A model generated the notes under the pieces. That model was not told the origin of the DNA. It worked only from the letters and a program-made list of their open reading frames with translations, and did not search any database. The translations under genes and the position numbers were made by a program. From positions 1 through 32,745 of the forward strand of contig JAFYNS010000075.1 of the NCBI GenBank assembly GCA_017556505.1: a stretch of DNA of 32,745 bases, given 5' to 3'. Below, in pieces: positions 6,744-27,997 of this stretch (its first letter is position 1; each line of letters starts with the position of its first letter). The DNA is from Bacillota bacterium. GTDB lineage: Bacteria > Bacillota > Clostridia > Peptostreptococcales > Anaerovoracaceae.

Positions 6744-7280
6744 TTAACGAATTACCTGTACATGGATACTTTCCATTACTTTCAGAGCAGCCTCCTGCAG
6801 GCTGTCATCATTGCTTGCCACCAGGGCTGCATTCACAATCTGCGGTACATCTGGCATGGCTGCTTTCACCACCGCAATATTTGACAGTACACAGATATTG
6901 GTCACCACGCCGCAGAACTCCACACTTTCGTATTCGCTGCCGCGGTTTCTCAGATAATCTGCCAGCTCCAGACTTCCAAAGGTCGGCTTACTGAAGACCA
7001 GGTCATGTTTGCCCTTCAGAGCAGCTACCTTTCCGTAAAGCTGCCATCCGTCCTCACCGTCCATGCAGTGGGGAACCGGCAGATTCTTTCCTTCCTGACT
7101 GTCCATGTAATGACGGTCATGGGTGTCCATGGTGAAAATAATTTCCGCACCATCCCCCAGACTTCGGTACTCGCAGATTTTTTCTGCGATTCCCTCCTCC
7201 AGTGCTGTGGCCTGCGGACAGCCCAGCGCTCCATTCACAAAATCGTTCTGGTAGTCTACTACAATCAGTAATTTTTTCAT
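6744..7280 (-). CDS. Isochorismatase-superfamily cysteine hydrolase, nicotinamidase-like
   Basis: 178 residues. The catalytic triad of this superfamily is complete: D9 (VVDYQNDF), K98 (FSKPTFGS) and C130 (GVVTNICVLS). D52, H54 (MDTH) and H71 (VPHC) stand where nicotinamidases bind their metal, which favours nicotinamidase over isochorismatase. The length is typical for PncA-like enzymes. The expected reaction is nicotinamide to nicotinate plus ammonia, the first step of pyridine salvage, in the cytosol; related amidases on other substrates cannot be excluded. It lies 13 bases after the Fe-S flavoprotein gene, in an operon that also encodes a NadD-like domain, which supports a pyridine-nucleotide role by context. 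Confidence 0.82.
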   Translation of the reverse strand: MKKLLIVVDYQNDFVNGALGCPQATALEEGIAEKICEYRSLGDGAEIIFTMDTHDRHYMDSQEGKNLPVPHCMDGEDGWQLYGKVAALKGKHDLVFSKPTFGSLELADYLRNRGSEYESVEFCGVVTNICVLSNIAVVKAAMPDVPQIVNAALVASNDDSLQEAALKVMESIHVQVIR

Positions 7281-7293
7281 TTCTGTTCACCCC

Positions 7294-8370
7294 TCAGTCT
7301 CTGAGCAAAATCCGCTGCGCAAACTCTGCCGCCTGTTCATCAATATCGTCTATTTCCAGTATACTTCCCGGATTGTTCGCTGTCGCCATGAGAGCAAATT
7401 TTGCCGGGAGAATAAAGTTCTTATTCATATTGATGGCCCCGATTACCTGCTGTGCCACAATGTCACCGCCGCTGTAGCCGGATACCACCAGTGCATAAAA
7501 CCGTTTCCGGCTGAAATCATTGGTGCGGAACAGTGCGGTCAGGCGGTTGATAAATGCCATGATGTTGGCACTTACCGAATCATTGTAGTTCGGGCAGATC
7601 AGCACCAGAATGTCGCCTCTGGCAATTGCCGGATATACTTTTTCTACCATAACTCCGCCATAAAAGCAACTTGATTTTTCACCATAATGTAAACAGGCTT
7701 CATATTTGCAGCCGCGGCAGTCCCAGACTTCCCCGTCACGAAGCGAGATTTCCTCAATGCGGGCATAACCGTCCAGGTGCTCCTGGACTTTGGACCAGAG
7801 TACCAGACTGTTAGATGTTTTCCGGCTGCTGGCATGGACTGCCAGAATGGATGGGCAGGAAAGCTTCTCCACCCTAAATTCCAGCACTTTGTTTACCAGC
7901 TTCCGCACTGCATCTTCATAGGCATGATAAAGATTGGTCTGCAGGGTCTTCGCCTGTACATCGTAATTTTTCAGACTTCCCGTGCCTTCCACCAGAGATT
8001 TCCCCGGCAGCGTGCATCCTGCCATACTTGCCGCAAAAGCAAGTCTGCGACCCGCATCCTTTGTGTAGCATTCATCGGCTCCGTCAATCAGGATTCCGGC
8101 GGCTGCTCCCAGGAGACAGTCCCGGTTCCGGTGAAGATAACGCAGCACCTCCATCATTTCCATATTGATGCCGCTTATATCCAGTTCTGCTGCGAAGAGA
8201 ATACGGCTTTCTTCCAGCTGACCGCTGTCTGCAGCCCGGCAGAATTCATCTGCACCGTCCAGCCAGTGTATTTCTGTCTTTTTTTCAGCATCTGTCAGCG
8301 CGTACTCCAGCAGCTGGTCCAGCCGTCCGCTGCCGTCAGGATCCGGCAGATATGCAATATACAGACTCAT
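7294..8370 (-). CDS. Two-domain protein: unknown N-domain plus Fe-S flavoprotein-like NAD(P)H reductase
   Basis: 358 residues. The C-terminal half (about 172-358) is a flavodoxin-fold FMN reductase domain: SILAVHASSRKTSNS (174-188) is the phosphate-binding first loop, and LICPNYNDSVSANIMAFINR (257-276) and VVSGYSGGD match later FMN loops. Cysteines 218, 221, 226 and 235 form a compact cluster motif in the place where iron-sulfur flavoproteins carry theirs. The N-terminal half (1-165) is alpha/beta in appearance and is not recognised; its LGAAAGILIDG and AGRRLAFAASMAGC stretches recall a flavodoxin-like or NAD-binding pattern, so it may be a divergent duplicate. It lies 12 bases after the LDH-like gene. 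Electron transfer between NAD(P)H and an unknown partner is the likely role. Confidence 0.78.
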   Translation of the reverse strand: MSLYIAYLPDPDGSGRLDQLLEYALTDAEKKTEIHWLDGADEFCRAADSGQLEESRILFAAELDISGINMEMMEVLRYLHRNRDCLLGAAAGILIDGADECYTKDAGRRLAFAASMAGCTLPGKSLVEGTGSLKNYDVQAKTLQTNLYHAYEDAVRKLVNKVLEFRVEKLSCPSILAVHASSRKTSNSLVLWSKVQEHLDGYARIEEISLRDGEVWDCRGCKYEACLHYGEKSSCFYGGVMVEKVYPAIARGDILVLICPNYNDSVSANIMAFINRLTALFRTNDFSRKRFYALVVSGYSGGDIVAQQVIGAINMNKNFILPAKFALMATANNPGSILEIDDIDEQAAEFAQRILLRD

Positions 8371-8382
8371 CGCTTCACCTTC

Positions 8383-9411
8383 TTATATTATCCCGCAAAG
8401 ATTGTCATAAGCATGCTTTATCCGCTCATACAGCGGCAGAGGAAGCATCAGATCCTCATATTCCAGTTTTATTCCGTCAATCCGGTTTTTTACGCCCAGG
8501 AAAGCCCCCTCTGCCGTTCTGGTACCGTCTTCCGCCTGGTGCACCGGTTCTCCCAGGTAAACAGAGCTGTAATGCCACTGTCCCCGGAGTGCCCGCAGAA
8601 CGGACATGGTTCCCGACGAAATAGCAGGAGCAAGATACGGTTTAAAGCCCAGTTCCCGCACTTCCAGATTGGCTTCAACCGTCAGTCTGGTCAGGTGACG
8701 GGACAGCTCGTCATCATAATTTTCTATGCTGTTGGCGATAACAAGATCACCGCCATGAGGTCCGAAAGCTCTTCCTTCTGTTGGATAAGAGGTCAGCCTT
8801 TCATCCTTCCGTGCATAGTACACGGCTCTCCGGTTCATGACCCCAAGGCCAAAGCCACGGATCTGCCCCGGCTCCAGTCCGGAAGCCAGCAGGGCTGCTT
8901 TGCAGAGAGGATCCACCGGATCGGAAACCACACCGAAAATGCCTTTATAGTCTGCAGCACCGGCCATGGAAGCGAAATGCTCCACGATTTTGCGGTTGGC
9001 TTCAAGCTGCATCATCCGCACATCCCCCTTCACGCCGATGGCAGGGATGGCTTTGCTGGCACAGAAAAGGAAGAGATCGCAGTCAAACAACTCTTCCTCT
9101 TTCAGGATTACCACTTCCGGAAGAGGTACTGTGTTTCCGTCTTCCGCTTCTGCTTCCTCGAAAGACCAGCCCATCTGGTTCATTTCCCGCTCATAACGTT
9201 CCAGCACATTTGGATTTATATCATAGATACCGATGGTACCAATGGTTCCTGCTCCCAGAACTTTCAGTCCCAACAGAAGAGTGGCGCCCACATCCCCCAG
9301 AGCCAGAATATGCACTCTGGCTCCGCGTCCTTCTGCCTGGGGCAGCGGACGCCTGAGCTGGAGAGGAATCTGTGCGGGACAAAGCTCCCGCAATGATTTT
9401 TTTATGGTCAT
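8383..9411 (-). CDS. Lactate/malate dehydrogenase-family-like NAD-dependent oxidoreductase
   Basis: 342 residues. A Rossmann start VHILALGDVGATLLLGL (33-49) is followed by an acidic residue at the end of the second strand (GIYDIN, D64), which favours NAD over NADP. VVSDPVDPL (161-169) resembles the SNPVD motif of LDH/MDH, MNRRAVYYAR (192-201) is in the region of the substrate-binding arginine, and FGPHGGD (216-222) resembles the catalytic-histidine motif (H219). The sequence between is highly divergent and the C-terminal part is longer than in standard LDH, so substrate and even activity are uncertain. The ATG overlaps the stop of the 1613-codon gene (ATGA), indicating translational coupling. 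Its position between malic enzyme and a flavoprotein suggests hydroxyacid or redox metabolism. Confidence 0.75.
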   Translation of the reverse strand: MTIKKSLRELCPAQIPLQLRRPLPQAEGRGARVHILALGDVGATLLLGLKVLGAGTIGTIGIYDINPNVLERYEREMNQMGWSFEEAEAEDGNTVPLPEVVILKEEELFDCDLFLFCASKAIPAIGVKGDVRMMQLEANRKIVEHFASMAGAADYKGIFGVVSDPVDPLCKAALLASGLEPGQIRGFGLGVMNRRAVYYARKDERLTSYPTEGRAFGPHGGDLVIANSIENYDDELSRHLTRLTVEANLEVRELGFKPYLAPAISSGTMSVLRALRGQWHYSSVYLGEPVHQAEDGTRTAEGAFLGVKNRIDGIKLEYEDLMLPLPLYERIKHAYDNLCGII

Positions 9412-12400
9412 TTGAATAATTTCCTCATGCGAAGCAGCCGTTCTATGTCTTTTTCCACATAGGTACTGGCCGCCATATTTTCATCCTGCAATACGTGATT
9501 GCCCATGTCCGGACACTTCGTAACCATGAGAACTTCTCCCAGACGCTGGATCGTCAGCTTACGCTCAAACTCATCCTGATATTCTTCTTCCAGTGTTTTC
9601 AGAATATCCCTGGAGTTTTCCAGACATGTCATGGAGTAATCAAAAATACTGCACAGCGGTACATTTCCGAAGAAACCCGGTACTGCAAACGGCAGAATCA
9701 GATTTACGGAAGGGATGGATTCCATCGACGCTACACTGACGTCTCTGTTCTTGATGCTGTCACCGCCCAGATAAGGGTAGGTTATGATTTCATCAATCCA
9801 GAATTTCAGGTTCGGCAGGAAGTAAGCACTTTCCACTTCTCTCTCTCTGGTCATCATCAGGTCGCGTCCGCGGCCGGTCTGTACACCGACTACCGTCTTT
9901 ATGACATTTACCTGATTTTCCTTCAGAATTCCGTCCAGTTCATTCATTCTGTAACCCTTATGAAGAAGGTCATCCACCAGGATTACCGGCCGGTTGAAAG
10001 ATTTTATGGTTTTTACCTGGTTTGCCAGAGGGGAATAATGTGCGGCCTCTTCAATAGTGAATCCGGACATATCTTTTTCAAAATATTTTTCAGTATGGAG
10101 TGATTTGGTAACAGTGTTCGGTACCACCGCGCCATCCAGCACCTTTCCAAAAGGCACTGCCATATACGGACCATACTGCTTCTGCTGACGCGGAACTGCC
10201 GGCACACCATTGATTTCTGTAATCAGCCGAATCATCTTATGATGCATGATACCAGCATTGAAGGTCAGGACCAGATTTCCCGGATACATCTTTGTCAGCA
10301 CCTGAAGCATTCTGTCATGAGCATGTTCCACCGCATCCAGAACGTTCTGATTCCGGTTCAGCGGACTCTTGATAAATGCTTCCACGTTCTTGAACACAAT
10401 AACCGGATCCTTCATATTCGCAGCATAAATCGGTCCGGACGCTCCTGCCGTACCGGATGCAATGTTGACAAAGCCCTGCTTTGACAGCATCTCCAGTACT
10501 CTGCTTCCCATCCCCGCCTCATGACACGGATGATAAACCACGTAAGTATAGTCACGTGCCAGAAGTTCACTGAGAACTTCTGTCAGAATAGTCTGTCCCA
10601 GATTGGAGATGGAACTGTTCTGACTGAAATACAGTCCGCCGATTACAGCGATGGCGCCCACCGCCTGAGCTCGGATATGAGCTGCAATTTCCGGATTCTT
10701 AAACTCCTTCAGCAAATCGATACTGTCCAGTCTGCTGACAGCTGCCAGCGCTACGACTTTGCCGCCGTATACTCCATCGCGGATCCGCACAGTACGGACA
10801 CCTGGACGGTTCAGATATTCCTGAACGGTATCATAATCAAAGCCCCAGCTTTCCAGTTCTTCCTTCATATCGTCTGCGGCTTCTCCATCCCGGCTCATGT
10901 AGGCTTCCAGACGGATATCCTGTGCCTGAATCATGTGCTTGTATGCAGGCTCCCGGAGATACAGACCGTTTTCAAAGATGTAGTTCTGTGCCACCGGGTC
11001 AATCAGATTGGAAATATCCCGGTTCAGGTCGATGTTTTCACGAATTTTGGTGGAACTGATATCTTCGTAGTATTCTTCCAGGGTAAGATTGATAATGCTG
11101 CCGCTGATCGGGTAGCGTTTCGGTGCAGTACCTGGACAGGCTGGCTGTGCTGACGGTACAGACTGGCCGCTGTTTCTCCGGAAGATAATATGGTTGAATG
11201 TATGGATGGAATGTTCCTTTTCCTCTGCACGGTAGCAGGAAGCATTCTCGATTACATCACTTCCGGCCACGAAGTACAGCTGACGGTCAGCAAAGAGTTC
11301 CTTCAGCTGCTTCAGATCATCCGGATTGGCGATATTTACCGGAATATGATCCGGGAAAATATAGATTTCAGCTTCATCGGCTACGGACATGCTCATCAGC
11401 TTCCGGCGCTGCAGTCTCGGCTGAGTCTTTTTCGACCAGCTGAATTCATCCAGTGCCAGATAAACTTCGTATCCCATATTGCGGATTTCTGTGGCAATCG
11501 CCTTATGGCTCAGGCTGAACGGGTCGAAGGTTCCCGGGAAGAAAGCAACTTTTTCCCGGTCAGGAATATGAAATGGACCCTTTTCCGCTTCGTAGAGTGT
11601 AATGAAGCGGTAGATGTGGTTCAGCACTGCTGCATTGTTGAAGAAATCCAGTCCCTCTTCCTTCTGTCCGTCGTACAAAGTCAGCATTTTCTTGCCGTTG
11701 TGACAGAAAATCTGGTATTTTTCTTCCAGTGTCAGATTTGGAGAGCCGAAAATATGGGTTCCCATGGTCCAGAGAGCTTCGGAACTGATTGTGCTGTCAT
11801 AGTTGGCAAATCCTCTGAGAATCAGATTCACCAGATGATACTTACGATGCTCCGCAGCTTCCTCCGTTTCATGTTCCCCGAAATTAGTCCGATAAATCCG
11901 GTAGTGTTCCAGCATGACACCGAAGGTGTGCAGCACGGTAGACGCAGCCTGTCCGTTATTGGATTCAAAAAGCTTCATCAGATCGTCTATGGCTTCATCC
12001 AGTTCCTGCGGCGGCAGGTGGAGCATAATCGGTCCCAGATAAAACGGAATATATTTAGAGAACTGGTAATCACCGATTTCCAGGCCCTTGCTCAGTTCTA
12101 CCGCAATTTCATTTCTCTCTTCCATGGGCATTCTGCCGATAATGGAAACAAGGGCTTCCCCTGCGGCGCGGCGGACGGTTACGGTTTCACTGACCTTAAC
12201 CAGATTTCCCAGATGGGTAGCCACATGGAGTTCCTCTCCCTTGCCGAAGCCGGACTGCAGATGCTTCATCATCAGATTGATATTGCCGATTTTGATGGTC
12301 CATGGGGTTCTGGCCTTCATGTTATCCAGGAACATTTCTGCCAGAACTTCTGTGCTCAGCGGTTCCTGAGGATTCAGTCCCATGATTTCCATCAGTTCCC

Positions 12401-14249
12401 TGTAATAGGTTTCTTCCTCAATCTGCTCGTCCGGCTGAGAGTACATGCATTTTACTCTTACAGCCGCAATTTTCAGGTCGATATTTTCTTTTTTCACAAT
12501 AGATGAAGCAAAGTTCAGAATGGTGCGGCACTGTTTTTCACTGCACCACTGCGGTGCGATCATTCCCGCAGCACGAAGCAGAGCTTCCTTATTCAGAGAG
12601 GTCAGGCTGCGGCTGTTAAACCACGGCATCAGAGCCGCAATATATTCCTGCCTCTGATTTTCAGGACAGGTGTTCAGCAGTCCGCTTACCAGATTCTTCA
12701 GACAGCTTTCAATCCATTTTTTATGCTGTTCCGTCAGTTTGAAATCAGACTGCAGGACCTGCCGCAGATAGTGTTCAAACAGGGAGATATTATTTATTTT
12801 TTTCCGTGCCGGCTGCACGCCTTCCGGAAGTTCTTTTCTGAATTCTTCGTTAAAACGGGCAATAATCAGCCCCATGATTTCACCAGCCTGGGTCCGGATA
12901 TCACTCTCGCGGTGAGCCAGCAGTTCATAGAGGAACTTCAGTGTCATGAGTTTCTGCTTTTCCGTCATGTAGGTGGAGTACTCCCCAAAGATGGAAATAT
13001 AGGTGCGCAGATTCTTCCACTGTTTTTCACTTCTGGCAGTTTCCAGCAAATTGGCAAAATCTTCTTCCCGGTAGAAATGATTCATCAGGCGGATATTGTG
13101 ATCTACTGCAATGTGCTTAATCTTAAGCACCGCCTCGTTATTGCGCAGCAGCGCCACATCCTTTTCCGCGGCTCTTTCAGGCAGCAGGGGAACTGCTGCC
13201 GGAACTTCCGGCAGCACCACATTCACGCCCAGATTCCGCATATAGTTTTCGAAATCAACCAGCTTGTTATATACTTTACGGTAGCGCAGTTCTTTAGCCG
13301 CATCCACATTATCCAGCTTATCCAGAATGACCTGGAAGGATTCCGCCAGGGAATAGAAATGTACAACCTCCACTCCGTCCACCCGGCTGCTCTTCACCCG
13401 GAAATCCGCATAAATCAGAATCAGAGATTCCACAGAAAGGTTTTCCAGTTCCAGATCCCAGGTGGAATGGTTGGCCGCAATATGACTGATCATCGGCATG
13501 TTAAACCGGGTCAGACAGAAGTCAGTGTAGTAGTAATGAATATACGGAATTCTCCGTTCCTCACCTTTTTTGCAGCCGTATTTTCCGATATCGTGAGCTG
13601 CAGCTGCCGCAGAAACCATTCCAAGATCCACAGGTACATTGAGATGGGCCAGCTGTCTTGCCACATGCATAGCTACATAATGAACTCCTGCGATATGTCC
13701 CAGAGTGTTCCATGGTGTGATTTCGGTTCCGATCCGCATGAATTCATAAACATACTGCAGTCTGGACATACGGTCAAACCGCTGATATTCCCGGTTGTAT
13801 CCACCCGCATCAATTTCCGGCATCCGGAGAAAGCGGATATCCACTGTAGGATCAAACGGAAGATTCAGCCGTTCATACTTGAAAAGCACCTGAAGAAGCC
13901 GGAGGAAAACCTTTCTTCCTCTGGCTGAAGTATCCTCAGACTCCTCTGCCTTTTTTTCAGGGAACAGCTGGCCAAGCACATATTCATATGCATGAGCCGG
14001 CCATCCCTTTTCAGGAACCGGTCCCAGGTCTGCCAGCAGGTCTGCCATCATGTCTGCAGTCTTCACCGCACTGAAACGGCCTCTTTCGTCCCGTTCTGCA
14101 AGCAGCTGCTCGATCAGCTGCTTCATACTGTGCTTTTCCAGGAAAGTCAGCATGTCGCCATGACTCATGGACATGTTCTTCAGAAAGGCACGCTCCGTAA
14201 GTACGGTCTGAATCTCATTATACAGTTTTTCACTCTGCGTTCTGTTCAT
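9408..14249 (-). CDS. Giant fusion: HD hydrolase, helical repeats, NadD-like adenylyltransferase, GNAT-like and PRTase-like regions
   Basis: 1613 residues with no signal peptide. HD domain at about 180-300: H190, the HD pair H219/D220 (AAHDIGKYG), H256, H261 and D282. Region 370-880 is all-helical with HEAT-like units such as VRRAAGEALVSIIGRM. A nucleotidyltransferase domain at 900-1095 is clear: FPGTFDPFSLSH (904-915), FVAGSDVIENASCYR (993-1007) and ISSTKIR (1064-1070) match the NadD family in order. Region 1110-1290 looks GNAT-like (AVIGGLYF, LGQTILTEVLSELLARDY). Region 1310-1560 contains RPVILVDDLLHKGYRM (1420-1435), resembling a type I PRPP loop but without its usual Thr. Weak ribosome binding site (AGAGAG). 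It lies 28 bases after malic enzyme and is coupled to the LDH-like gene. HD and NadD are linked elsewhere (YqeK beside or fused to NadD), but this five-part fusion is not one I can name. Confidence 0.85.
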   Translation of the reverse strand: MNRTQSEKLYNEIQTVLTERAFLKNMSMSHGDMLTFLEKHSMKQLIEQLLAERDERGRFSAVKTADMMADLLADLGPVPEKGWPAHAYEYVLGQLFPEKKAEESEDTSARGRKVFLRLLQVLFKYERLNLPFDPTVDIRFLRMPEIDAGGYNREYQRFDRMSRLQYVYEFMRIGTEITPWNTLGHIAGVHYVAMHVARQLAHLNVPVDLGMVSAAAAAHDIGKYGCKKGEERRIPYIHYYYTDFCLTRFNMPMISHIAANHSTWDLELENLSVESLILIYADFRVKSSRVDGVEVVHFYSLAESFQVILDKLDNVDAAKELRYRKVYNKLVDFENYMRNLGVNVVLPEVPAAVPLLPERAAEKDVALLRNNEAVLKIKHIAVDHNIRLMNHFYREEDFANLLETARSEKQWKNLRTYISIFGEYSTYMTEKQKLMTLKFLYELLAHRESDIRTQAGEIMGLIIARFNEEFRKELPEGVQPARKKINNISLFEHYLRQVLQSDFKLTEQHKKWIESCLKNLVSGLLNTCPENQRQEYIAALMPWFNSRSLTSLNKEALLRAAGMIAPQWCSEKQCRTILNFASSIVKKENIDLKIAAVRVKCMYSQPDEQIEEETYYRELMEIMGLNPQEPLSTEVLAEMFLDNMKARTPWTIKIGNINLMMKHLQSGFGKGEELHVATHLGNLVKVSETVTVRRAAGEALVSIIGRMPMEERNEIAVELSKGLEIGDYQFSKYIPFYLGPIMLHLPPQELDEAIDDLMKLFESNNGQAASTVLHTFGVMLEHYRIYRTNFGEHETEEAAEHRKYHLVNLILRGFANYDSTISSEALWTMGTHIFGSPNLTLEEKYQIFCHNGKKMLTLYDGQKEEGLDFFNNAAVLNHIYRFITLYEAEKGPFHIPDREKVAFFPGTFDPFSLSHKAIATEIRNMGYEVYLALDEFSWSKKTQPRLQRRKLMSMSVADEAEIYIFPDHIPVNIANPDDLKQLKELFADRQLYFVAGSDVIENASCYRAEEKEHSIHTFNHIIFRRNSGQSVPSAQPACPGTAPKRYPISGSIINLTLEEYYEDISSTKIRENIDLNRDISNLIDPVAQNYIFENGLYLREPAYKHMIQAQDIRLEAYMSRDGEAADDMKEELESWGFDYDTVQEYLNRPGVRTVRIRDGVYGGKVVALAAVSRLDSIDLLKEFKNPEIAAHIRAQAVGAIAVIGGLYFSQNSSISNLGQTILTEVLSELLARDYTYVVYHPCHEAGMGSRVLEMLSKQGFVNIASGTAGASGPIYAANMKDPVIVFKNVEAFIKSPLNRNQNVLDAVEHAHDRMLQVLTKMYPGNLVLTFNAGIMHHKMIRLITEINGVPAVPRQQKQYGPYMAVPFGKVLDGAVVPNTVTKSLHTEKYFEKDMSGFTIEEAAHYSPLANQVKTIKSFNRPVILVDDLLHKGYRMNELDGILKENQVNVIKTVVGVQTGRGRDLMMTREREVESAYFLPNLKFWIDEIITYPYLGGDSIKNRDVSVASMESIPSVNLILPFAVPGFFGNVPLCSIFDYSMTCLENSRDILKTLEEEYQDEFERKLTIQRLGEVLMVTKCPDMGNHVLQDENMAASTYVEKDIERLLRMRKLFK

Positions 14250-14277: not shown

Positions 14278-15459
14278 TTATACTCTGGCCAGTCCCAGTC
14301 TGACAGCCTCCTCTGCCACAGCCTTTGCCACTGCATCCACGACTGCTGGATTAAAGGCATCCGGCAGGACATAGTCAGCACGCAGTTCTTCTTCCGGAAT
14401 CACTGCTGCGATGGCTCTTGCTGCCGCTTCCTTCATGGAGTCGGTAATTCTTGATGCACGTACATCCAGAACTCCGCGGAAAATACCAGGGAACGCCAGA
14501 ACATTGTTTACCTGGTTCGGGAAGTCGGAACGTCCGGTTCCCACTACTGCCGCACCTGCTTCCAGTGCTTCCTGCGGCATGATTTCCGGAGTTGGGTTGG
14601 CCATGGCGAAGACGATCGGATCCTTTGCCATGGAGCGGATCATATCCTTTGTCAGCATATTCGGTCTGGATACACCTACGAAAATGTCCGCATCTTTGAT
14701 TACGTCAGCCAGTTTGCCCTGGAGATTATCCTTATTGGTCACCTTTGCCATGCGTTCCTGTTCGGAGTTATTGGAAGGAGCACCTTCATAAACGGCGCCG
14801 TCCTTATCGCAGAGGATGATATCGCCGAAACCAATCTGGTTTACCATCTTTGCGATGGAGATACCGGCTGCACCTGCACCGTTGATTACGATTTTCAGAT
14901 TTCCCATCCGTTCCTGACGGCCGGTAACCTTCACTGCATTCAGCAGTGCTGCCGCAGCGATAATTGCAGTACCATGCTGGTCATCATGGAATACCGGAAT
15001 GTCACAGCGCTCAATCAGTTCCCGTTCAATTTCAAAACATCTCGGTGCACTGATATCTTCCAGGTTGATACCGCCAAAGCTCTTGGAAATATTCACTATG
15101 GTATCCACAATCACCTTAGGATCTTTGGAATCCACACAGATAGGGAAAGCATCCACCCCTGCAAAACGCTTAAACAGCGCACACTTTCCTTCCATTACAG
15201 GCATGCCTGCAGAAGGACCAATGTCCCCCAGACCCAGCACTGCGGTACCATCTGTAATCACGGCAACCAGGTTTCCCTTTCTTGTATATTCATACGCCAG
15301 AGATTCATCCTTATTGATTTCCAGACATGGTTCTGCCACACCCGGTGTATATGCTATGGAAAGTTCTTCCTTATTGTTAACAGGTGCTCTGGAAATAACT
15401 TCAATTTTTCCCTGCCATTCTCTGTGTTTCTGTAATGCAATTTCTCTCTTGTCAGCCAT
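14278..15459 (-). CDS. Malic enzyme (oxaloacetate-decarboxylating malate dehydrogenase)
   Basis: 393 residues from the chosen start. It converts malate to pyruvate and CO2 with reduction of NAD(P). Visible family motifs are ELSIAYTPGVAEPCLEI (Tyr as general acid), NLVAVITDGTAVLGLGDIG, EGKCALFKRFAGVDAFPI with the catalytic lysine, NLEDISAPRCFEIE, the metal site PVFHDDQHGTAII, the Rossmann loop INGAGAAGISIAK, and MANPTPEI. This is the short prokaryotic form without a phosphotransacetylase extension. An upstream in-frame ATG at 15480 is rejected because the strong AGGAGG sits inside that extension, eight bases before the ATG at 15459. It is the first gene of a tightly spaced seven-gene unit. Confidence 0.95.
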   Translation of the reverse strand: MADKREIALQKHREWQGKIEVISRAPVNNKEELSIAYTPGVAEPCLEINKDESLAYEYTRKGNLVAVITDGTAVLGLGDIGPSAGMPVMEGKCALFKRFAGVDAFPICVDSKDPKVIVDTIVNISKSFGGINLEDISAPRCFEIERELIERCDIPVFHDDQHGTAIIAAAALLNAVKVTGRQERMGNLKIVINGAGAAGISIAKMVNQIGFGDIILCDKDGAVYEGAPSNNSEQERMAKVTNKDNLQGKLADVIKDADIFVGVSRPNMLTKDMIRSMAKDPIVFAMANPTPEIMPQEALEAGAAVVGTGRSDFPNQVNNVLAFPGIFRGVLDVRASRITDSMKEAAARAIAAVIPEEELRADYVLPDAFNPAVVDAVAKAVAEEAVRLGLARV

Positions 15460-15496
15460 GACTTGATCCTCCTGCGTCATTATTAATATATACTGT

Positions 15497-15525
15497 ATTT
15501 TACCACATTCTTATGCACTTGGCAA
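15497..15525 (-). promoter_or_regulatory. Promoter of the malic enzyme-led seven-gene operon
   Basis: On the minus strand TTGCCA (15525-15520) and TAAAAT (15502-15497) are separated by 17 bases, five of six matches in each box. The -35 overlaps the last codons of the aro fusion gene. The start would be near 15490, giving a leader of about 30 bases to the ATG at 15459. All following genes down to 5401 are separated by 28 bases or less, and no terminator was found among them. Confidence 0.65.
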
Positions 15526-17034
15526 AATATATGCCCGGATTTCTTCCGCCGCTTCTTCCAGGGTTTTGCCGTTGTTTTCCACTTCTGCATCGCACCAGCT
15601 GCGGTAGAGCGGCAGTCTCTGTGCGTAGAGCCGTTCCAGCGGATTGCTCTGGCTCAGCGGGCGTCCCTCAACCGGCAAAACGTTTAAATCCCGGTTTATA
15701 AATACCAGCCGTCCGTTTTCTGCCAGGGAATAGTAGTTTTCTTCCCGGGTAACCACACCGCCGCCGCAGGCGATAATGATTCCTGTCTCGTGCTTCAGGG
15801 TATCGACTGCTTCCATTTCAATCCGGCGGAACAGGTCTTCCCCGCCCTCTTCAAAGATGGAAGGAATGGACCTGCATTCTCTCTGGACAATCAGCTCATC
15901 CACATCCACAAAGCGGCGTCCGGTCAGTTCCGCCAGCTTTCTTCCGATGGAGGATTTGCCGCATCCCGGCATACCAATCAGAACGATATTTTCTTTTTCA
16001 GCAGCAAGCTTTTTCTCAATCTTTTCTGCTGCTTCATCAGGAATTTCACATCCCAGGAACAGCTGTGCACTGGCTTTTGCCTGTCCCACCAGCATCTTCA
16101 GCCCACCGAAACCTTCCATACCGGACTTGCGTGCCTGACAGAGGAAATTGGTCCGCAGCGGGTTGTATACCACATCAAAAACATACTCCAACTTCCAGAA
16201 GGCTCCCGGATATGCAGCAGAAACTCCGGTATTCGGATACATTCCCACCGGCGTAGTATTCACCATAATCACCGCATCCTGATGATACATCTTCATCTGC
16301 TGGTAGTCACATCCTGTTTTTCCATCACGGCTTACCACTACCACCTGAGATGCACCCAGATCCTCCAGCACACAGGCCACAGCCTTTGATGCACCGCCGG
16401 AGCCCAGAACCAGACATTTTGCACCGGAAACAGGGGCACCGGACTGTTCCACCGTCGTGCGGAATCCATCGTAGTCCGTGTTATATCCCAGAATTCTGCC
16501 GTTTCGGCGAACCAGCGTATTGACAGCTCCAATCCGCTGTGCTTCCGGTGAAAGCTCGTCACAGAAGTCTATCACAGACTCCTTATAAGGGATTGTCACA
16601 TTCAGACCTGCCCACTGACCATTTCTTACGAAGTCTTCCAGATTTTCCGGTTCCACTTCAAATATGCCATAATTGTACGGTTCACTGTATTCGGCCAGCA
16701 TACGGTGAATTTCCGGAGAGAAACTGTGGGAAAGGTTCCGTCCCAGAAGACCGAAATTGCGAAGGCTGTTCTGATAATTCCGGCTCACCTCCATGAGTTT
16801 GCGGAATACTTCAGCGGCATAATCTGAGAGTTCTTCCGTCACACCGGAGGTGATACGGCTGAGAATTTCTTCTTCTCTTTCAGGAACATAAACCGGCAGT
16901 CCCTGCTCCATCTTGTTTCTCACCACTTCACGGGCAGCAGCCATTCGTTTTTCAAAAGCCTCTGCAATGATGCGGTCCTGTTCATTGATCACCTGGCGCG
17001 CTTCCTCCAGCGTCAGTCTTCTGTCAGATTCCAT
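15511..17034 (-). CDS. Trifunctional shikimate protein: chorismate mutase, shikimate dehydrogenase, shikimate kinase
   Basis: 507 residues. The AroQ-type chorismate mutase is at about 1-92: a long first helix LEEARQVINEQDRIIAEAF with EKRM, then VVRNKMEQGLPVYVPEREEEIL. Shikimate dehydrogenase is at about 93-330: LLGRNLSHSFSPEIH (serines binding shikimate), NVTIPYK with catalytic K151, YNTDYDG with D187, the nucleotide loop LGSGGASKAV, and NTTPVGMYP. Shikimate kinase is at about 348-507: Walker A GMPGCGKSS (354-362), FVDVDE, LFRRIE, CGGGV and GRPL. Together these cover two consecutive steps before chorismate is made plus the chorismate-to-prephenate step. GGGGGAGG lies seven bases before the ATG. 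A terminator hairpin of the upstream two-component genes lies about 25 bases upstream, so an aro transcript may have to pass through it. Confidence 0.93.
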   Translation of the reverse strand: MESDRRLTLEEARQVINEQDRIIAEAFEKRMAAAREVVRNKMEQGLPVYVPEREEEILSRITSGVTEELSDYAAEVFRKLMEVSRNYQNSLRNFGLLGRNLSHSFSPEIHRMLAEYSEPYNYGIFEVEPENLEDFVRNGQWAGLNVTIPYKESVIDFCDELSPEAQRIGAVNTLVRRNGRILGYNTDYDGFRTTVEQSGAPVSGAKCLVLGSGGASKAVACVLEDLGASQVVVVSRDGKTGCDYQQMKMYHQDAVIMVNTTPVGMYPNTGVSAAYPGAFWKLEYVFDVVYNPLRTNFLCQARKSGMEGFGGLKMLVGQAKASAQLFLGCEIPDEAAEKIEKKLAAEKENIVLIGMPGCGKSSIGRKLAELTGRRFVDVDELIVQRECRSIPSIFEEGGEDLFRRIEMEAVDTLKHETGIIIACGGGVVTREENYYSLAENGRLVFINRDLNVLPVEGRPLSQSNPLERLYAQRLPLYRSWCDAEVENNGKTLEEAAEEIRAYILPSA

Positions 17035-21563: not shown

Positions 21564-24500
21564 TTATTTTATAGTTCTCCATGCTTTAGTGGACCAGTCT
21601 GTATAGTATTTCTTACCATTGATTTCCTGGCAGCCACGAACTTTATAGTAATAGGTGTTTCCGGTTTTCAGGCCCTTGGTGTTATAGTAGCTGGTCTTCG
21701 TGGTGGTGAAAATCGGTTTTTTTGTGAATCCGCTGTATCTCTTCGTTGAGCGGAATATCTGATACCCATCAAAATCCACGTCGCTTTCTTTTTCGTACCA
21801 CCATACTTTTACGGCCTTTTTACCTTTCAGGGTGGTCAGCTTGGAGCGTGTAATCAGCTTGGTGGATTTCACTGCTGCAATCTGGTCAGCGGTGCTGTCC
21901 TTATCATCTTCAATATCTGGCGCAGTTCCAGGAGTCTGGCTGCCGCCGGTTGTGCCAGAGCCGGAACCGGAGCCGGAACCTGAACCGGAACCTGATCCAG
22001 AGCTGGAGTTGCCGGTGAGGGCCGTAACAGCCTGCTGTGCGGATTTTGCGGAGAGAACCAGCTGATAGCCGTCCGCTTCACCGTCCAGCGCAAACTGGTA
22101 CTTGATCTGTCCGTTTGCATCGGTTGGAACTTCAGACAGGTAAAGAATGTCGTCCGCTGTCAGATTCTTCAGGTCCACATCCTTCTTTACAGCTGCCATA
22201 GTTACCTGCACGCCTTCAGCGGCGCCCTTCAGGGTCACGGTTCCGCTGGCGATGCCGTCCTTCACAGTCTGAGCAGACAGTGCGAAGGTACCGTTTGCTG
22301 CGGCTGCAGAAGAGCTGTATGTCTTCTGTTCCAGAGCCAGGTATGCTTCATGGCACTGTGCACTCAGCGGGAAGGTATTTTCTGCATCTTCATATTCCAC
22401 TTCATTGAGTGCCAGATCGCCGGTCAGAGGGTCGGTTCCGCTCTGGTAGCAGGTTACCTGTGGTACCATGGCAGATGTCATGTCTTCCAGGCTGTCCCAT
22501 GCATAGATACGGATCTGGTCACCGCTTTCGAAGGACATAGCTTCTTCCAGAGTGAAGTACTTTCCGGACTGATTCTTTCCGGCACCGGTTACGGTTACCA
22601 GCTGCTTATCCAGCAGCTTGCTTCCGTCTTTGCTATAGCGTGCAATCACAACCACACTGTCATCGCTGAAGTTGTGTGCGGTAAAGCCCTTTACTGCACC
22701 ATTTTCCACATCCAGCTTCACGGTCGGTACGGTCACCATAACCATGAGGGAAGAGCATACGGTACGTTCTCCGTAGGAATTGCTCGGGTCGTTGGTGACT
22801 TCATATTCTCCGTCTTCATTGAGAATCACAGAGGTGGAGGAGCCGCCGCCATCCATGTTCAGCGCCTGTACTGCTCCCAAATCCTTCATATACTGACCCA
22901 GTTTTTCAATGGTGAAGCCCTGTGCTCCGTTGTTATAGCCTCTTCCGTCTACAACCACGAAGAAAACAGAACCATCTTCACGGATGCCCACTGCAGTACG
23001 TGGGTGTGTACCATGGCGGTATACATATTCTTCATCATAATCCGGATCAGAGGTATCGGTGACGTCATAATCGCTGAAGTCCTGTACCACTCCATCCTTT
23101 ACCATCCAGAACTGTCCGCCGGATGCCTGTACCAGCTGATCCTTATAGGTTTCCCAATCTTCGCCGTAATCCCCAATGATGGCAGTACCATCTTCCAGGA
23201 TACCGAAGAAAGCACGAAGCGGATAGTTTCTGGTAATGCCATCTACCACCACGCCTGGAGTCATAATTCCTTCCAGAATCTTGCCGCCGTCTTTTATCAG
23301 GTGTCCTTCCGGTCCATTATTGGTATAGAATTCTCCGTTAACTGCAGCGACCACGTCTTTTCCGACTGCTTCGGTCTGAATGGCCTGATTCTTTACGGTT
23401 TCTCCGTAGCTGTCCTTCCAGGTTCTGTCTCGCAGGTCATTATCATCATCGTCCGTCATTTCCAGCTGGACATCGTTCCTGGTGCCCACTGCGATGGAAA
23501 TATTTTTATTATTCAGATCTACATCAATGATGTTTGCAACCTGCTTCAGGTTATCGGTGTCAGTAAAGGTCATCTGACGCAGGGTCACGCCTTCTGCCAC
23601 CTGGGAAGTTTCATCGGACTGAATGGCTTCGGTAATCTGGCTTACCGTAATTACCACAGTTCTGGTTGCAGTTGCCGTATTTCCTGCCTTGTCGCTTACC
23701 GTATAGGTCAGGGTATATACACCAGGGGTATTACTGTCTACTTCACCGGTTACGGTGACTTGGGATTCCAGATTTTCATCCACATTGTCGATGATGTTCA
23801 CGCCTTCCATCGGGTCGAAATCAGGGCCTGCAGCCACATTCTTTTCCACTGGCAGCAGGATGGTCGGTGCTTCTGCATCGCCATTTTCGTTCTTGGTCAG
23901 TGTAACCGTATCCATCAGGTTGGCCTCTGCACTGCCATCGTTGTCAGTAAAGCAGGTACTCAGTGTAAAGTGGTGTTCATCTACGTCTACATTGGTGATG
24001 GAAGGGCGGCTGTCCTGACGGCTTACCTTGGCATACTGCGTAATGATTGCATCGCTCTGCAGTGCATAGTACTTGCTTCCGCTTGCGGAGTTTGCTGTCA
24101 GGTATAATACATCTCCGGACGCCGGGTCGATGCCATCCTGGTCATCAGCCACGTTGGTTCCGTTCATCATGTAGCTGCGTGTATAAACATGGTCATGACC
24201 CATGAGTACCACGTCGATGTCATATTTACTGAAAATATTCGGCAATTCTTCTCTTCTCTGGATGATATCCGTATCATCATAATGGGTGGCAGAGCTGTAT
24301 ACGGAATGATGGAAGGTTACCACTTTCCAGTCTACGCCCTGTCCGTGTTCCCTCAGCACTTCATCGATGAATGCTTCATGGGATGCCGTGCTCAGATTGT
24401 TGGAGTTCAGAGAAATAAATAATACATTGTTGTAAGTAAACCAGTAGTCTCCGCCAGATTTGGAATCGCTGTCTGCAGTTCCATACTTCCTGCTGAGATT

Positions 24501-27500
24501 CGGCATATTGAAGCGTTCATTCCAGTACACACTTCCCACATCGTGGTTCCCGATGTTTGCAGCCAGAGCCAGACTCTTCAGTTCGTCCGGAGCCATAAAT
24601 GCTGCGTATTCGTTGGCGTTGGAATTGTGTTCTACCTGGTCTCCGGCACTGAGCAGGAATGCACTGTCCTTAAACTGGCCGACTGCATATTCCAGTGTCT
24701 TTTCCCAGTTCTGGCCGTCCGTCCTGGTATCTCCACTGGAGCCGATCTGCGGGTCTCCGGCAAAGAGGAAGCGGAATGCTCCGTCAAAATCTCCTGTCTG
24801 GAAGGTATACACATCAGACCAGGCTTCTTCGTTGCCCACACGGTATACATACGTTGTGTTTTCTTCCAGTCTGCCGGTTTCTGCCTTGCTTGCATATTCA
24901 TCCATTCCGGTTCTTCTGGTATCTGCAGTGAACTGTTTCATGCCTTCCTCTGCAGTTGGGAAGGTTCCGTCATTTTCATAGGCATCTGCCGGTGCAATCT
25001 GCAGGAAGGCAGTGCTGCCAGAAGTGCTGATCCAGTTGAAGTTTCTGGTAGTTTCATCGCTTCCCACATTGAAGGTCACGTCGTACACTTCCATGCTGGT
25101 ATTCAGTGCGGTTTCCGCCACGTTCTTCAGTACCGGACGTACCAGCTGGCTGTCCATGGTCCAGGTGTTCTCAAAATCCCAGCCCAGGGTATCCTTATAA
25201 GTTGTTTCTTCGGCGAGCGCTTCATCGGTGACGGTTGCACCCTGTTCGTTGGATGCGTCTGCCCCTTCGGTGACTGCTGTGCCATTCAGCAATGCATTTT
25301 CGGATGCAATATTGTTTGTGAACACGCCGGCTGCCTTACCGATAATTCTGGCGATTGGTTTTCCTTTTACATTGCTTACGTTACCTGCCAGCAGGGCACA
25401 GTCAGAGATATAGGTATCTGTGTAACCATAGCCTGCAATACCGCCGGTGTTCTGTACATAAGAGTATACGTTCGGGATCGCATAACATTTTTCAATAGTG
25501 CCGTTGTGGTCCGCAACACCTGCGATGGCACCGGCTTCCCAGTTGGCTCTTACGCTGACCTGGGTGTAGCAGTTCCGGATGACACCATAGTTTCTGCATG
25601 CGATACCGCCTGCCATCCAGCCGCCATAAATCTTACCATTTACATAGCAGTTTTCGATGATGCCGTTGTTGTAGACTGCCAGCCCTGCCAGATGGTAGCT
25701 GTTGGAACTGGTATCTCCCTGCAGCTTCACGTTGGCCAGACCCAGATTTTTAATGGTGCCCACATTGTTCACAATCAGGGCAATATCTGTCTGGGAACCT
25801 GATGTCTGGATTGCCAGGTTTTCGATGGTATATCCAGCGCCGTCCAGAGTTCCGCAGAATACTTCCGCCGGTGTATAGTCTTCTGTAACGGTGATATTGT
25901 TTTTCAGAACGAAATTGGCCATTGGGTATTCTGCAATCTTCGCTAAATCTGCTTCGGTTTCCACATAAATGGTTTCCCCGGCAGCAGACTGTGCAGCGAT
26001 TTCCGGTACGTTTTTTAATACCGGTCTTCCCAGGGTGTCATCCATGGTCCAGGTATTGGTGAAATCCCAGCCCAGGTTGGTGTAAGCAGCTTCTGCCTTC
26101 AGTGCTTCGTCTGTCACGGTCGCACCGTTTACAGTGGCATCGCCGCAGCTTTCTTCTGCTGCAGCCTGTCCCTGCAGTGTCAGGGATGCAGATGCAATAT
26201 TTCCGGACAGGTTCTGATTCGGGTTGGACCTGCCCAGGATTCTGCCGATGGTAGTCTTGGCAGTATCGGCCATTTCCACAGATCCGGAAAGAACGGCACT
26301 GTTCTGAATGACAGCCGTATTGTCGCGTGCATAAGCAACCAGTCCGCCTGCATTATAGGTAGAGCTGTATACCTCAGCCTGTGCATAGCAGTTTTCTACC
26401 GTAGAACTGATTTCGGACACAGCCACCAGTCCGGCACTTTCGCCGTTTGCTTTGGATGTTACAACCGCATAACAGTTCTTAACGGTGCCGTAGTTGTGGG
26501 CTGCGATACCTGCTGTTCTGTGTCCCCCTTCCACAGACCCGGTCACATAACAGTTTTCAATGATACCGGTGTTGGACGCTGTAATACCAGCAGCCCAGCA
26601 GTCATTATCCATACGTGCGCTGTAGATAGATACACCTGCCAGACCCAGATTTTTAATGCTTCCGCTGTTGTTTTCAATTAGAGCGGCCTTATTGGCTGTA
26701 CCGGTGGCAGCCACCATCAGACCGGTGATCGTATGTCCGTCACCGTCCAGGGTACCGCTGAAAGAAGAAATCGGTGTGAAAAGTCCATCCATCTGGATGT
26801 CAGCAGTCAGTTTGAAGGTTCCCGATGGATTTTCACGAATCAGCTCCAGATCCGCTGCAGCTGCGATTTCAGTCACCACAACAGGCACTTCTTCACTGCC
26901 CTGACCCGGTTCCGGTACATTTTTCAGTGACGGATAATCGTTATCGATGGTCCAGATCGTTTCCGTATCCCATCCCAGGGTATCCTTGTATAAAGCTTCA
27001 CTCTTCAGTTCTTCGTCTGTTACAGTCAGGCCGTTCTTGTTATCTAAAGTACCGTCTGTAACAGGGCTGTTCTGCACCAGTGCGCGGGCAGAAGCTACGT
27101 TGTTCACATAAACAGGCTTCGCCTTTTCCTTCCCGCAGATGCGTGCGTAACTGGTATTGCCTGCGGAAGTCAGAGTTGCGGAACCGCCGGTAACAGCGTT
27201 ATTTCGGATGATCACACTGGTATCCGCACTGTAAGCCACCAGAACACCTACATTATACTTGTTGGTGAAAACAGTAGCATTGGTCCAGCACTTTTCAATT
27301 ACAGAGTTGGCCCTCATAACTGCTGCGATGCCGCCGCATTCAACTTGCGCAGCAGCATCCACGTGTGTATAGCAGTTTCGGATAGTTCCATAGTTTTCTG
27401 CTGTAATGCCGCCCACACGGTATCCTCCGTTAATGGTGCCGGTCACATAGCACTGTTCTATGGTACCGTAATTGTTCGCTGCAATACCGGCAGAAAAATA

Positions 27501-27917
27501 GTTGTTTGCATTGAGGCCGGTAAGATTTACCTCGTACAGACCCAGCTTCTGAATGGTGCCTTCATTGGTAACCACCAGGGCTGCCTGAGTTGGGCCTGAG
27601 GTAATTGCGGTGATGGTCAGGTTGGAAATGGTATGTCCATTTCCGTCCAGAACTCCACTGAAGGAGTCAATTGGTGTAAATTCCCCCGTCATGGTGATGT
27701 CATCTGTCAGCTGGAAGTTTCCGGATGGGTTTTCACGGATTTTTTCCAGATCTGCTTCTGAGCTGATGGCAATCATGCCGCTGGCATTGCTGCCTTCGCT
27801 GCTGCCGTCATCGGCCCACGCATAGGTGGTCGATGACATCATGCTCAGACACATTGACAAAATGATCAGCAGACTGAGAATTTTTTTCGTTGTTTGCTTC
27901 ACATAGGTTTGTCTCAT
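21564..27917 (-). CDS. Giant secreted protein: three beta-helix-like repeats, purple-acid-phosphatase-like domain, NAGPA-type phosphodiester glycosidase
   Basis: About 2117 residues; numbers below count from an upstream ATG 13 codons earlier. Signal peptide 14-48 (KKILSLLIILSMCLSMMSS, then TYAWA). Three GLUG-like repeats of about 290 residues fill 61-948. A purple-acid-phosphatase N-domain (950-1055, ETTRNFNW) precedes a metallophosphoesterase (1060-1310) with GDPQ, GDQ, GNHD, FHHSVY and GHDH. An Ig-like domain (about 1362-1438) is followed by a phosphodiester glycosidase domain (1455-1742) with NGEFYTNNG, HPRTAVGI, VVVDGR and ALNMDGGGSSTS. A Ser-Gly linker (1986-2001) leads to a fibronectin-like domain. 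No LPXTG, SLH or other anchor is seen. The start at 27917 has AGGAGGT seven bases upstream. The chemistry implied is removal of a sugar from a sugar-phosphate diester and then of the phosphate. Confidence 0.88.
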   Translation of the reverse strand: MRQTYVKQTTKKILSLLIILSMCLSMMSSTTYAWADDGSSEGSNASGMIAISSEADLEKIRENPSGNFQLTDDITMTGEFTPIDSFSGVLDGNGHTISNLTITAITSGPTQAALVVTNEGTIQKLGLYEVNLTGLNANNYFSAGIAANNYGTIEQCYVTGTINGGYRVGGITAENYGTIRNCYTHVDAAAQVECGGIAAVMRANSVIEKCWTNATVFTNKYNVGVLVAYSADTSVIIRNNAVTGGSATLTSAGNTSYARICGKEKAKPVYVNNVASARALVQNSPVTDGTLDNKNGLTVTDEELKSEALYKDTLGWDTETIWTIDNDYPSLKNVPEPGQGSEEVPVVVTEIAAAADLELIRENPSGTFKLTADIQMDGLFTPISSFSGTLDGDGHTITGLMVAATGTANKAALIENNSGSIKNLGLAGVSIYSARMDNDCWAAGITASNTGIIENCYVTGSVEGGHRTAGIAAHNYGTVKNCYAVVTSKANGESAGLVAVSEISSTVENCYAQAEVYSSTYNAGGLVAYARDNTAVIQNSAVLSGSVEMADTAKTTIGRILGRSNPNQNLSGNIASASLTLQGQAAAEESCGDATVNGATVTDEALKAEAAYTNLGWDFTNTWTMDDTLGRPVLKNVPEIAAQSAAGETIYVETEADLAKIAEYPMANFVLKNNITVTEDYTPAEVFCGTLDGAGYTIENLAIQTSGSQTDIALIVNNVGTIKNLGLANVKLQGDTSSNSYHLAGLAVYNNGIIENCYVNGKIYGGWMAGGIACRNYGVIRNCYTQVSVRANWEAGAIAGVADHNGTIEKCYAIPNVYSYVQNTGGIAGYGYTDTYISDCALLAGNVSNVKGKPIARIIGKAAGVFTNNIASENALLNGTAVTEGADASNEQGATVTDEALAEETTYKDTLGWDFENTWTMDSQLVRPVLKNVAETALNTSMEVYDVTFNVGSDETTRNFNWISTSGSTAFLQIAPADAYENDGTFPTAEEGMKQFTADTRRTGMDEYASKAETGRLEENTTYVYRVGNEEAWSDVYTFQTGDFDGAFRFLFAGDPQIGSSGDTRTDGQNWEKTLEYAVGQFKDSAFLLSAGDQVEHNSNANEYAAFMAPDELKSLALAANIGNHDVGSVYWNERFNMPNLSRKYGTADSDSKSGGDYWFTYNNVLFISLNSNNLSTASHEAFIDEVLREHGQGVDWKVVTFHHSVYSSATHYDDTDIIQRREELPNIFSKYDIDVVLMGHDHVYTRSYMMNGTNVADDQDGIDPASGDVLYLTANSASGSKYYALQSDAIITQYAKVSRQDSRPSITNVDVDEHHFTLSTCFTDNDGSAEANLMDTVTLTKNENGDAEAPTILLPVEKNVAAGPDFDPMEGVNIIDNVDENLESQVTVTGEVDSNTPGVYTLTYTVSDKAGNTATATRTVVITVSQITEAIQSDETSQVAEGVTLRQMTFTDTDNLKQVANIIDVDLNNKNISIAVGTRNDVQLEMTDDDDNDLRDRTWKDSYGETVKNQAIQTEAVGKDVVAAVNGEFYTNNGPEGHLIKDGGKILEGIMTPGVVVDGITRNYPLRAFFGILEDGTAIIGDYGEDWETYKDQLVQASGGQFWMVKDGVVQDFSDYDVTDTSDPDYDEEYVYRHGTHPRTAVGIREDGSVFFVVVDGRGYNNGAQGFTIEKLGQYMKDLGAVQALNMDGGGSSTSVILNEDGEYEVTNDPSNSYGERTVCSSLMVMVTVPTVKLDVENGAVKGFTAHNFSDDSVVVIARYSKDGSKLLDKQLVTVTGAGKNQSGKYFTLEEAMSFESGDQIRIYAWDSLEDMTSAMVPQVTCYQSGTDPLTGDLALNEVEYEDAENTFPLSAQCHEAYLALEQKTYSSSAAAANGTFALSAQTVKDGIASGTVTLKGAAEGVQVTMAAVKKDVDLKNLTADDILYLSEVPTDANGQIKYQFALDGEADGYQLVLSAKSAQQAVTALTGNSSSGSGSGSGSGSGSGSGTTGGSQTPGTAPDIEDDKDSTADQIAAVKSTKLITRSKLTTLKGKKAVKVWWYEKESDVDFDGYQIFRSTKRYSGFTKKPIFTTTKTSYYNTKGLKTGNTYYYKVRGCQEINGKKYYTDWSTKAWRTIK
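21954..22001 (-). repeat. Hexanucleotide repeat encoding a Ser-Gly linker
   Basis: Eight Ser-Gly dipeptides are encoded by a tandem six-base repeat (variants of GGTTCC and GGCTCC read on the minus strand). It is a flexible linker between the enzyme part and the C-terminal fibronectin-like domain. Six-base unit changes would alter linker length without a frameshift. Confidence 0.8.
25113..25970 (-). repeat. Surface repeat 3 of the giant secreted protein
   Basis: Third copy with the same order (TEADLAKIAEYPMANFVL, GTLDGAGYTIENL, NNGIIENCYVNG, TVTDEALAEETTYKDTLGWD, PVLKNVAE), more diverged at its N-terminal strand. It passes directly into the phosphatase N-domain. Confidence 0.75.
26001..26876 (-). 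repeat. Surface repeat 2 of the giant secreted protein
   Basis: Same order of elements as repeat 1 (AAAADLELIRENPSGTFKL, GTLDGDGHTITGL, NTGIIENCYVTG, TVTDEALKAEAAYTNLGWD, PVLKNVPE). It appears closest to repeat 1 by eye. Confidence 0.75.
26907..27776 (-). repeat. Surface repeat 1 of the giant secreted protein
   Basis: Repeat unit of about 290 codons: opens with ISSEADLEKIRENPSGNFQL, then GVLDGNGHTISNLTI, several NYGTI-NCY turns typical of a parallel beta-helix, and closes with TVTDEELKSEALYKDTLGWD and a WTID..PSLKNVPE element. Confidence 0.75.
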
Positions 27918-27941
27918 TTCTTTTACCTCCTTGTGGCCCCA

Positions 27942-27997
27942 TTGTATCTTTTCCATGTTAAAGGCTTATAAAAGGAACGGTAAAACCTGCGTAAAAC
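27942..27997 (-). promoter_or_regulatory. Pho-box-like promoter of the giant phosphoesterase gene
   Basis: Reading the minus strand, TTTTAC (27996-27991), TTTTAC (27985-27980), TTTTAT (27973-27968) and TTTAACA (27962-27956) recur at 11, 12 and 11 bp. A -10 box TACAAT (27947-27942) follows with no usable -35. With initiation near 27935 the four boxes span about -22 to -62, the position and period of PhoP core sites (TTAACA-like hexamers on an 11-bp period) in Firmicutes. The boxes lie between the pdaA stop and the start codon at 27917. Confidence 0.5.

Follow-up and report, generated by a model that had tools for sequence, protein, structure and literature searches.

Introduction

Fusions of NadD with YqeK (NCBIfam PRK07152) are the closest described relatives of the system reported here. 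In these chains of about 360-370 amino acids (aa), of which JCVISYN3A_0380 is an example (PMC9426524), a NadD-fold nucleotidyltransferase (NT) with a canonical HxGH motif comes first and is joined to a recognisable YqeK HD hydrolase, and in one such fusion the HD domain hydrolyses the NaAD analogues that the NadD part of the same chain produces (PMC9426524). We analysed a stretch of 32,745 nucleotides (the window) from a Bacillota bacterium of the family Anaerovoracaceae (assembly GCA_017556505.1, contig JAFYNS010000075.1, positions 1 to 32,745), in which a single gene, here called the giant gene, encodes a protein of 1613 aa that likewise holds a NadD-fold NT and an HD domain in one chain. 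As in the fusions, the HD domain may clean up after the NT, and the initial annotation of the window, made from the sequence by itself, was right that NadD-HD fusions have precedent (PMC9426524). However, the giant protein differs from these fusions in that the HD domain comes first and is separated from the NT by a HEAT scaffold of 550 aa. It also carries two further folds after the NT, has an altered NT active site and comes with two obligate partner genes.

The giant gene is almost always inherited together with genes for a dehydrogenase-like protein and a flavoprotein, a pattern that suggests an undescribed enzyme system of three parts in many anaerobic Clostridia. The parts of this system are known folds, and the whole falls into none of the known kinds against which it was tested. 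The module is present in just over half of 247 sampled genomes of an anaerobic order and, since its proteins almost surely act together, its three genes make an unknown nucleotide or redox step directly testable.

Results and Discussion

The giant gene is inherited with two redox-type genes

The giant gene starts a conserved three-gene module that is mostly co-operonic (Table 1). In most of 70 loci the order is giant gene, dehydrogenase-like gene and flavoprotein-like gene, all on the same strand. Dehydrogenase-like and flavoprotein-like partners were counted in 59 and 57 of these loci; both figures leave out the pair in the window itself, which a longer antisense frame hid from the count. Among the 247 genomes of the order, 134 carry the giant gene. 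Of these carriers, 131 also encode the dehydrogenase and 126 the flavoprotein; neither partner was found in any of the 113 genomes that lack the giant gene. The corresponding Fisher p values, not corrected for ancestry, are about 5e-68 for the dehydrogenase and about 2e-61 for the flavoprotein. Given that the dehydrogenase accompanies 131/134 giant genes and occurs in 0/113 genomes without one, it is almost certain that the three proteins work jointly. We rank these partners, which the initial annotation left out, as the strongest clue to function.

The open reading frame of the giant gene had been delimited exactly in the initial annotation, without mention of its strand, which is minus; a plus-strand reading of the same interval contains in-frame stops and was rejected. 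Comparison with three relatives gives 37-47% identity at third codon positions and 72-84% at second positions, with many synonymous changes. As third-position identity is far below second-position identity, the gene is under selection at the protein level. Full-length relatives of ~1,600 aa with 30-79% identity occur across the order and beyond, the gene being found in 134/247 sampled genomes of the order, 32/391 of the class and 8/399 of the phylum. It is present in all of the same-genus genomes searched (one copy is cut by a contig end), is patchy inside the family, and yields a tree in which relatives of one taxonomic family mostly cluster together. Named carriers include Aminicella lysinilytica and Acetoanaerobium noterae, and the lineage is therefore Anaerovoracaceae together with other Peptostreptococcales-type Clostridia, not the Lachnospiraceae in which a survey had been proposed. 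Pfam, NCBIfam and PADLOC hold no family for the full-length protein and a search of databases and of open-access papers found no description of its architecture, in keeping with the earlier view that it matches no described system. Two records appear to be misfiled: "plasmid pTPELB2" of Acetoanaerobium noterae (L107), at 2.63 Mb, resembles a chromosome that was deposited under the wrong replicon type, and a partial copy of the giant gene with 89% identity (L039) lies on a contig filed as Akkermansia that is probably misbinned.

Table 1. Coordinates in the window of the three-gene module, the parts of the giant protein and the flanking genes
Feature	Position	Strand	Description and evidence
Malic enzyme gene	14278..15480	-	29 bp upstream of giant gene in this genus
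Giant gene	9408..14249	-	1613 aa, ATG start; orthologues, codon-position conservation
N-terminal region, residues 1-150	13800..14249	-	Helical, poorly conserved; AlphaFold, conservation
HD metal-dependent phosphohydrolase domain, residues 151-345	13215..13799	-	Pfam, invariant residues, AlphaFold
HEAT-like helical repeat scaffold, residues 346-895	11565..13214	-	AlphaFold, Foldseek, Pfam
NadD-fold NT, residues 896-1105	10935..11564	-	GTFDPFSLSHK and ISSTKIR motifs; Pfam, Foldseek, alignment
GNAT-like fold, residues 1106-1292	10374..10934	-	Without conserved acetyl-CoA loop; topology, viral Foldseek
Type-I phosphoribosyltransferase (PRTase)-like fold, residues 1293-1520	9690..10373	-	VPFGK, PNTVTKSLHTEK, VDDLLHKGYR
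C-terminal tail, residues 1521-1613	9411..9689	-	Helical; AlphaFold
LDH/MDH-superfamily dehydrogenase-like gene	8383..9411	-	342 aa; ATGA (4-bp) overlap with giant gene
FMN-reductase-like flavoprotein gene	7294..8370	-	358 aa; invariant C218, C221, C226, C235
Isochorismatase-family gene, nicotinamidase-like by eye	6744..7280	-	After module in three same-genus loci only

Both partners belong to families of redox enzymes. The dehydrogenase shares with lactate and malate dehydrogenases (LDH and MDH) an NAD-binding Rossmann fold, and its best solved relative (1.8e-9) places it in their superfamily. Alignment with LDH shows that both substrate Arg positions (R132, R195) and the catalytic His (H219) are invariant. 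It differs from these enzymes by an invariant Met (Met192) at the Asp168 position and an Asp at the Asn140 position, and scores 23.8 bits against the L-lactate dehydrogenase model TIGR01771, short of the curated cut-off of 303.55. The flavoprotein contains an FMN_red domain (6.8e-17) and four invariant Cys residues spaced C-x2-C-x4-C-x8-C that are perhaps an Fe-S site.

Architecture of the giant protein

The giant protein consists, in order, of a helical N-terminus, an HD hydrolase, a HEAT-repeat scaffold, a NadD-fold NT, a degenerate GNAT-like fold and a type-I PRTase-like fold. The whole chain was covered by two AlphaFold2 models of separate halves, with a mean predicted local distance difference test (pLDDT) score of 91.1 and a predicted template modelling (pTM) score of 0.88 for residues 1-899, and values of 90.3 and 0.88, respectively, for residues 880-1613. 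Together with profiles and fold searches these models support the five-part architecture that had been read from the sequence. Most invariant columns fall in the NT, HD and PRTase regions and not in the N-terminus or the GNAT-like region.

The HD domain has the H...HD...D metal ligands of its superfamily in an all-helical model. Five residues (H185, H219, D220, H238, D282) are shared by all 70 giant-protein sequences compared, and H261 is present in 69/70. Thus H219/D220, D282 and H261 of the residue set proposed initially hold up, and its H190 (65/70) and H256 (51/70) vary. Pfam HD (PF01966) matches 16/40 homologues (best 9e-6), with the window copy at 0.001-0.002 lying just below the Pfam cut-off. 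An assignment of the domain to YqeK (COG1713) was rejected for want of recognisable similarity: when it is compared by hhalign with the HD domain of a NadD-YqeK fusion from the same family, the probability is 0.3%, and the NCBIfam matches of the giant protein include no YqeK model. A genome of the family does encode such a fusion (L120). The helical stretch of about 500 residues that was described as HEAT-like is confirmed by an all-helical AlphaFold model of residues 346-890, by Pfam HEAT matches in 10/40 homologues (best 1.6e-6) and by Foldseek, in which the top matches are HEAT/ARM-type proteins (importins, CAND1 and similar).

Structure prediction and Foldseek establish a nucleotidyltransferase fold at residues 896-1105. 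The domain matches Pfam CTP_transf_like (2.4e-10), aligns by Foldseek with NadD (E about 1e-9; TM, taken on the target, up to 0.80) and is homologous to canonical NadDs by hhalign (99.4%), with which it shares the fold and the GTFDP and ISSTxIR motifs, the latter being the ATP-site motif. However, the proposal that all three NadD motifs are present fails, as the catalytic HxGH is replaced by S/T-x-(S/G)-H (first position Ser in 62 and Thr in 8 of 70 sequences, last His in 67/70) and the SYTxxT motif of the nicotinate mononucleotide (NaMN) site by VNIANPxDL. In addition, the active-site Trp of NadD aligns with an invariant Tyr (Tyr1006). Against the NadD model TIGR00482 the window copy reaches 46 bits, below the curated cut-off of 112.45, and in a comparison within one genome the giant protein scores 51 bits versus 163 for the genome's own NadD. 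A canonical NadD is encoded elsewhere in 13/13 genomes checked. We therefore rejected the NT as the NadD of its genome and conclude that it does another job; we infer an adenylyl- or nucleotidyltransferase that uses an NTP and a different acceptor, which is probably not NaMN. With these replacements and a coexisting NadD, a pyridine nucleotide is no more than a putative substrate.

The initial annotation rated the two C-terminal parts as its weaker ones; both hold up as folds. The PRTase-like part has support from topology and from sequence. Residues 1293-1520 have type-I PRTase topology in the AlphaFold model, PRTases ranked over controls in profile comparison, and the Foldseek matches include a viral model of HGPRT. 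Pfam PF00156 is found in 25/65 homologues at E<0.1 (best 2.7e-4), with the window copy below the Pfam cut-off. Features in common with type-I PRTases are the topology, the DD of the phosphoribosyl pyrophosphate (PRPP) loop and a conserved flexible-loop Lys/His, and the conserved loops read V1365-P-x-G, PNTVTK and DD..KGxR. The difference lies in the PRPP motif (DDLLHKGYR), where TGxT has become KGxR. The GNAT assignment is kept on fold alone: the model of residues 1106-1292 has the GNAT-like topology beta1-alpha1-alpha2-beta2-beta3-beta4-alpha3-beta5-alpha4-beta7 and viral GNAT models are among the Foldseek matches, but profile comparison did no better than controls and no RxxGxG acetyl-CoA loop (GNAT, PF00583) is conserved in this region of the homologues. 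The PDB Foldseek list for the C-terminal half contains NadD entries only, and fold support for the PRTase and GNAT parts consequently comes from the viral library.

Copies of the giant gene without nearby partners

Nine giant-gene loci have no partner nearby, which parsimony on the tree explains by five changes. Seven of the nine were treated as duplicates, and five of these (L065, L066, L067, L080, L081) adjoin a gene for an APH-like kinase (cluster 7). The NT His is changed to Gln in 3/7 duplicates, and agreement with the NT consensus is weaker in another two. The HD ligands are kept in 7/7 and the PRTase loop residues in most. Loss of NT residues with retention of the HD and mostly of the PRTase residues suggests that the HD and PRTase domains may form a core, with NT activity going with the two redox partners.

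Proposed function

We propose, with a probability of about 0.38, that the module is a chromosomal three-gene enzyme system that runs a line from base to mononucleotide to dinucleotide, with clean-up by the HD domain and two redox partners. The PRTase-like domain would join a base to PRPP to form a mononucleotide, which the NT domain would then join to AMP (or another nucleoside monophosphate, NMP) from an NTP to form an NAD-like dinucleotide. The HD domain would hydrolyse products that are wrong or in excess, the part played for NadD by YqeK in mycoplasmas; this proofreading idea has its precedent in the NadD-YqeK fusion (PMC9426524). The HEAT repeats would hold the sites together and the GNAT-like fold would be a binding or structural element, while the NAD-binding dehydrogenase and the flavoprotein would use or alter the product, or else supply and modify its precursor. 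Points in favor of this line are co-inheritance, gene order, the 4-bp overlap, the conserved HD, NT and PRTase sites, the separate NadD and the loss of NT residues in duplicates. A more specific version, in which the module makes and uses an undescribed base-adenosine (or base-NMP) dinucleotide cofactor, with base attachment, adenylylation and proofreading all on one chain and the partners as dedicated redox enzymes, is doubtful; if true, the few redox cofactors known so far would gain a new member.

Several observations count against the proposed line. The PRPP motif is altered (KGxR for TGxT) and Ser/Thr replaces the first His of HxGH in the NT, and a different activity is therefore conceivable at each of these sites. 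With each half of the chain modelled by itself, any channel between the sites is hypothetical. The co-inheritance counts carry no correction for shared ancestry, and one genus (g60; G060 = L087, and G124) has the giant gene and neither partner. The other genomes that lack a partner are fragmentary or distant assemblies. In G1075 the partners are present, but on another contig.

The pairing of an HD domain with an NT on a single chain recalls the logic of GlnD, and the giant protein might instead be a GlnD- or GlnE-like regulator of redox or nitrogen metabolism. Here the NT would put AMP (or another NMP) on a partner, for example the LDH-like enzyme or glutamate dehydrogenase, from which the HD domain would take it off again, and the other folds would sense nucleotides. 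Glutamate dehydrogenase or glutamate-synthase-like genes do neighbour the module in three clades, but in a minority of loci; moreover, the NT has the NadD fold, for which only small-molecule substrates are known, while GlnD and GlnE have a Pol-beta fold, and no ACT-type sensor domain was recognised in the giant protein. We thus regard such a regulator as unlikely. The same standing is given to a second pyridine-nucleotide enzyme that salvages or remodels NAD, turning nicotinamide, nicotinate or nicotinamide mononucleotide (NMN) into NAD(P) species, where the HD domain would proofread and the partners would be consumers; this is in line with the pyridine-nucleotide processing or sensing machine envisaged in the initial annotation. 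The homology of the NT to NadD, the families of both partners, which use NAD(H) or flavin, and the nicotinamidase-like isochorismatase that follows the module in this genus all fit this explanation. Opposed to it are the canonical NadD in every genome checked, the replacements at the NaMN site (SYTxxT and Trp), and the restriction of the isochorismatase neighbour to one genus. In addition, known NAPRT and NAMPT enzymes are not type-I PRTases.

A sensor of nucleotide stress or an alarmone hydrolase would have an active HD domain, cleaving for example dinucleotides like diadenosine tetraphosphate (Ap4A), with the NT, GNAT and PRTase parts acting mainly as ligand sensors. Conservation is highest in the HD domain, which every copy retains, the GNAT and sometimes the NT are degenerate, and YqeK HD proteins are Ap4A hydrolases according to the statement in PMC9426524 that cites its reference 33. 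However, the HD domain is not recognisable as YqeK, a pure sensor would not need the NT and PRTase motifs that are conserved in partner-linked copies, and the two redox partners are left unexplained, which makes this reading somewhat less likely again. A defence or mobile-element system would accord with the patchy presence inside the family and with a large multidomain protein with helical repeats, yet it is very improbable: PADLOC gives no match, phages contain no relative, only one full-length match occurs among plasmid records (in a 2.6-Mb replicon), and relatives of one taxonomic family are mostly together in the tree. A viral origin was rejected as well, since viral contigs give CoaD-like fragments only.

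Genomic context

Malic enzyme, probably co-transcribed with the giant gene in the window, lies outside the conserved module; together with the isochorismatase-family gene and a class-V aminotransferase gene that also follows the module in this genus, it is a genus-level addition to the conserved trio. Consensus matching indicates a promoter-like site ahead of malic enzyme (15525-15497) and a terminator-like hairpin after the aminotransferase gene (5346-5302), and an Rfam scan of the window and 12 related loci found nothing placed to control the giant gene. In other lineages, glutamate dehydrogenase adjoins the module in two distant clades with different arrangements, and a third clade has three glutamate-synthase-like genes between the module genes (loci of the three clades: L059, L060, L064, L088-L091, L094, L102; L054, L057).

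Four minus-strand genes elsewhere in the window are also of note. Chorismate mutase, shikimate dehydrogenase and shikimate kinase form one fused chain (15511-17034). A putative secreted protein of 2130 aa (21564-27956) contains, by eye, repeated beta-type units, metallophosphatase-like and phosphodiester-glycosidase-like stretches and a C-terminal Fn3-like part. A PurF-like amidophosphoribosyltransferase (30810-32231) scores 188 bits against a cut-off of 350, and for this reason is perhaps a divergent paralogue. Finally, a NudC-type NAD(+) diphosphatase that scores above its NCBIfam cut-off is encoded about 15 kb from the module (29923-30798).

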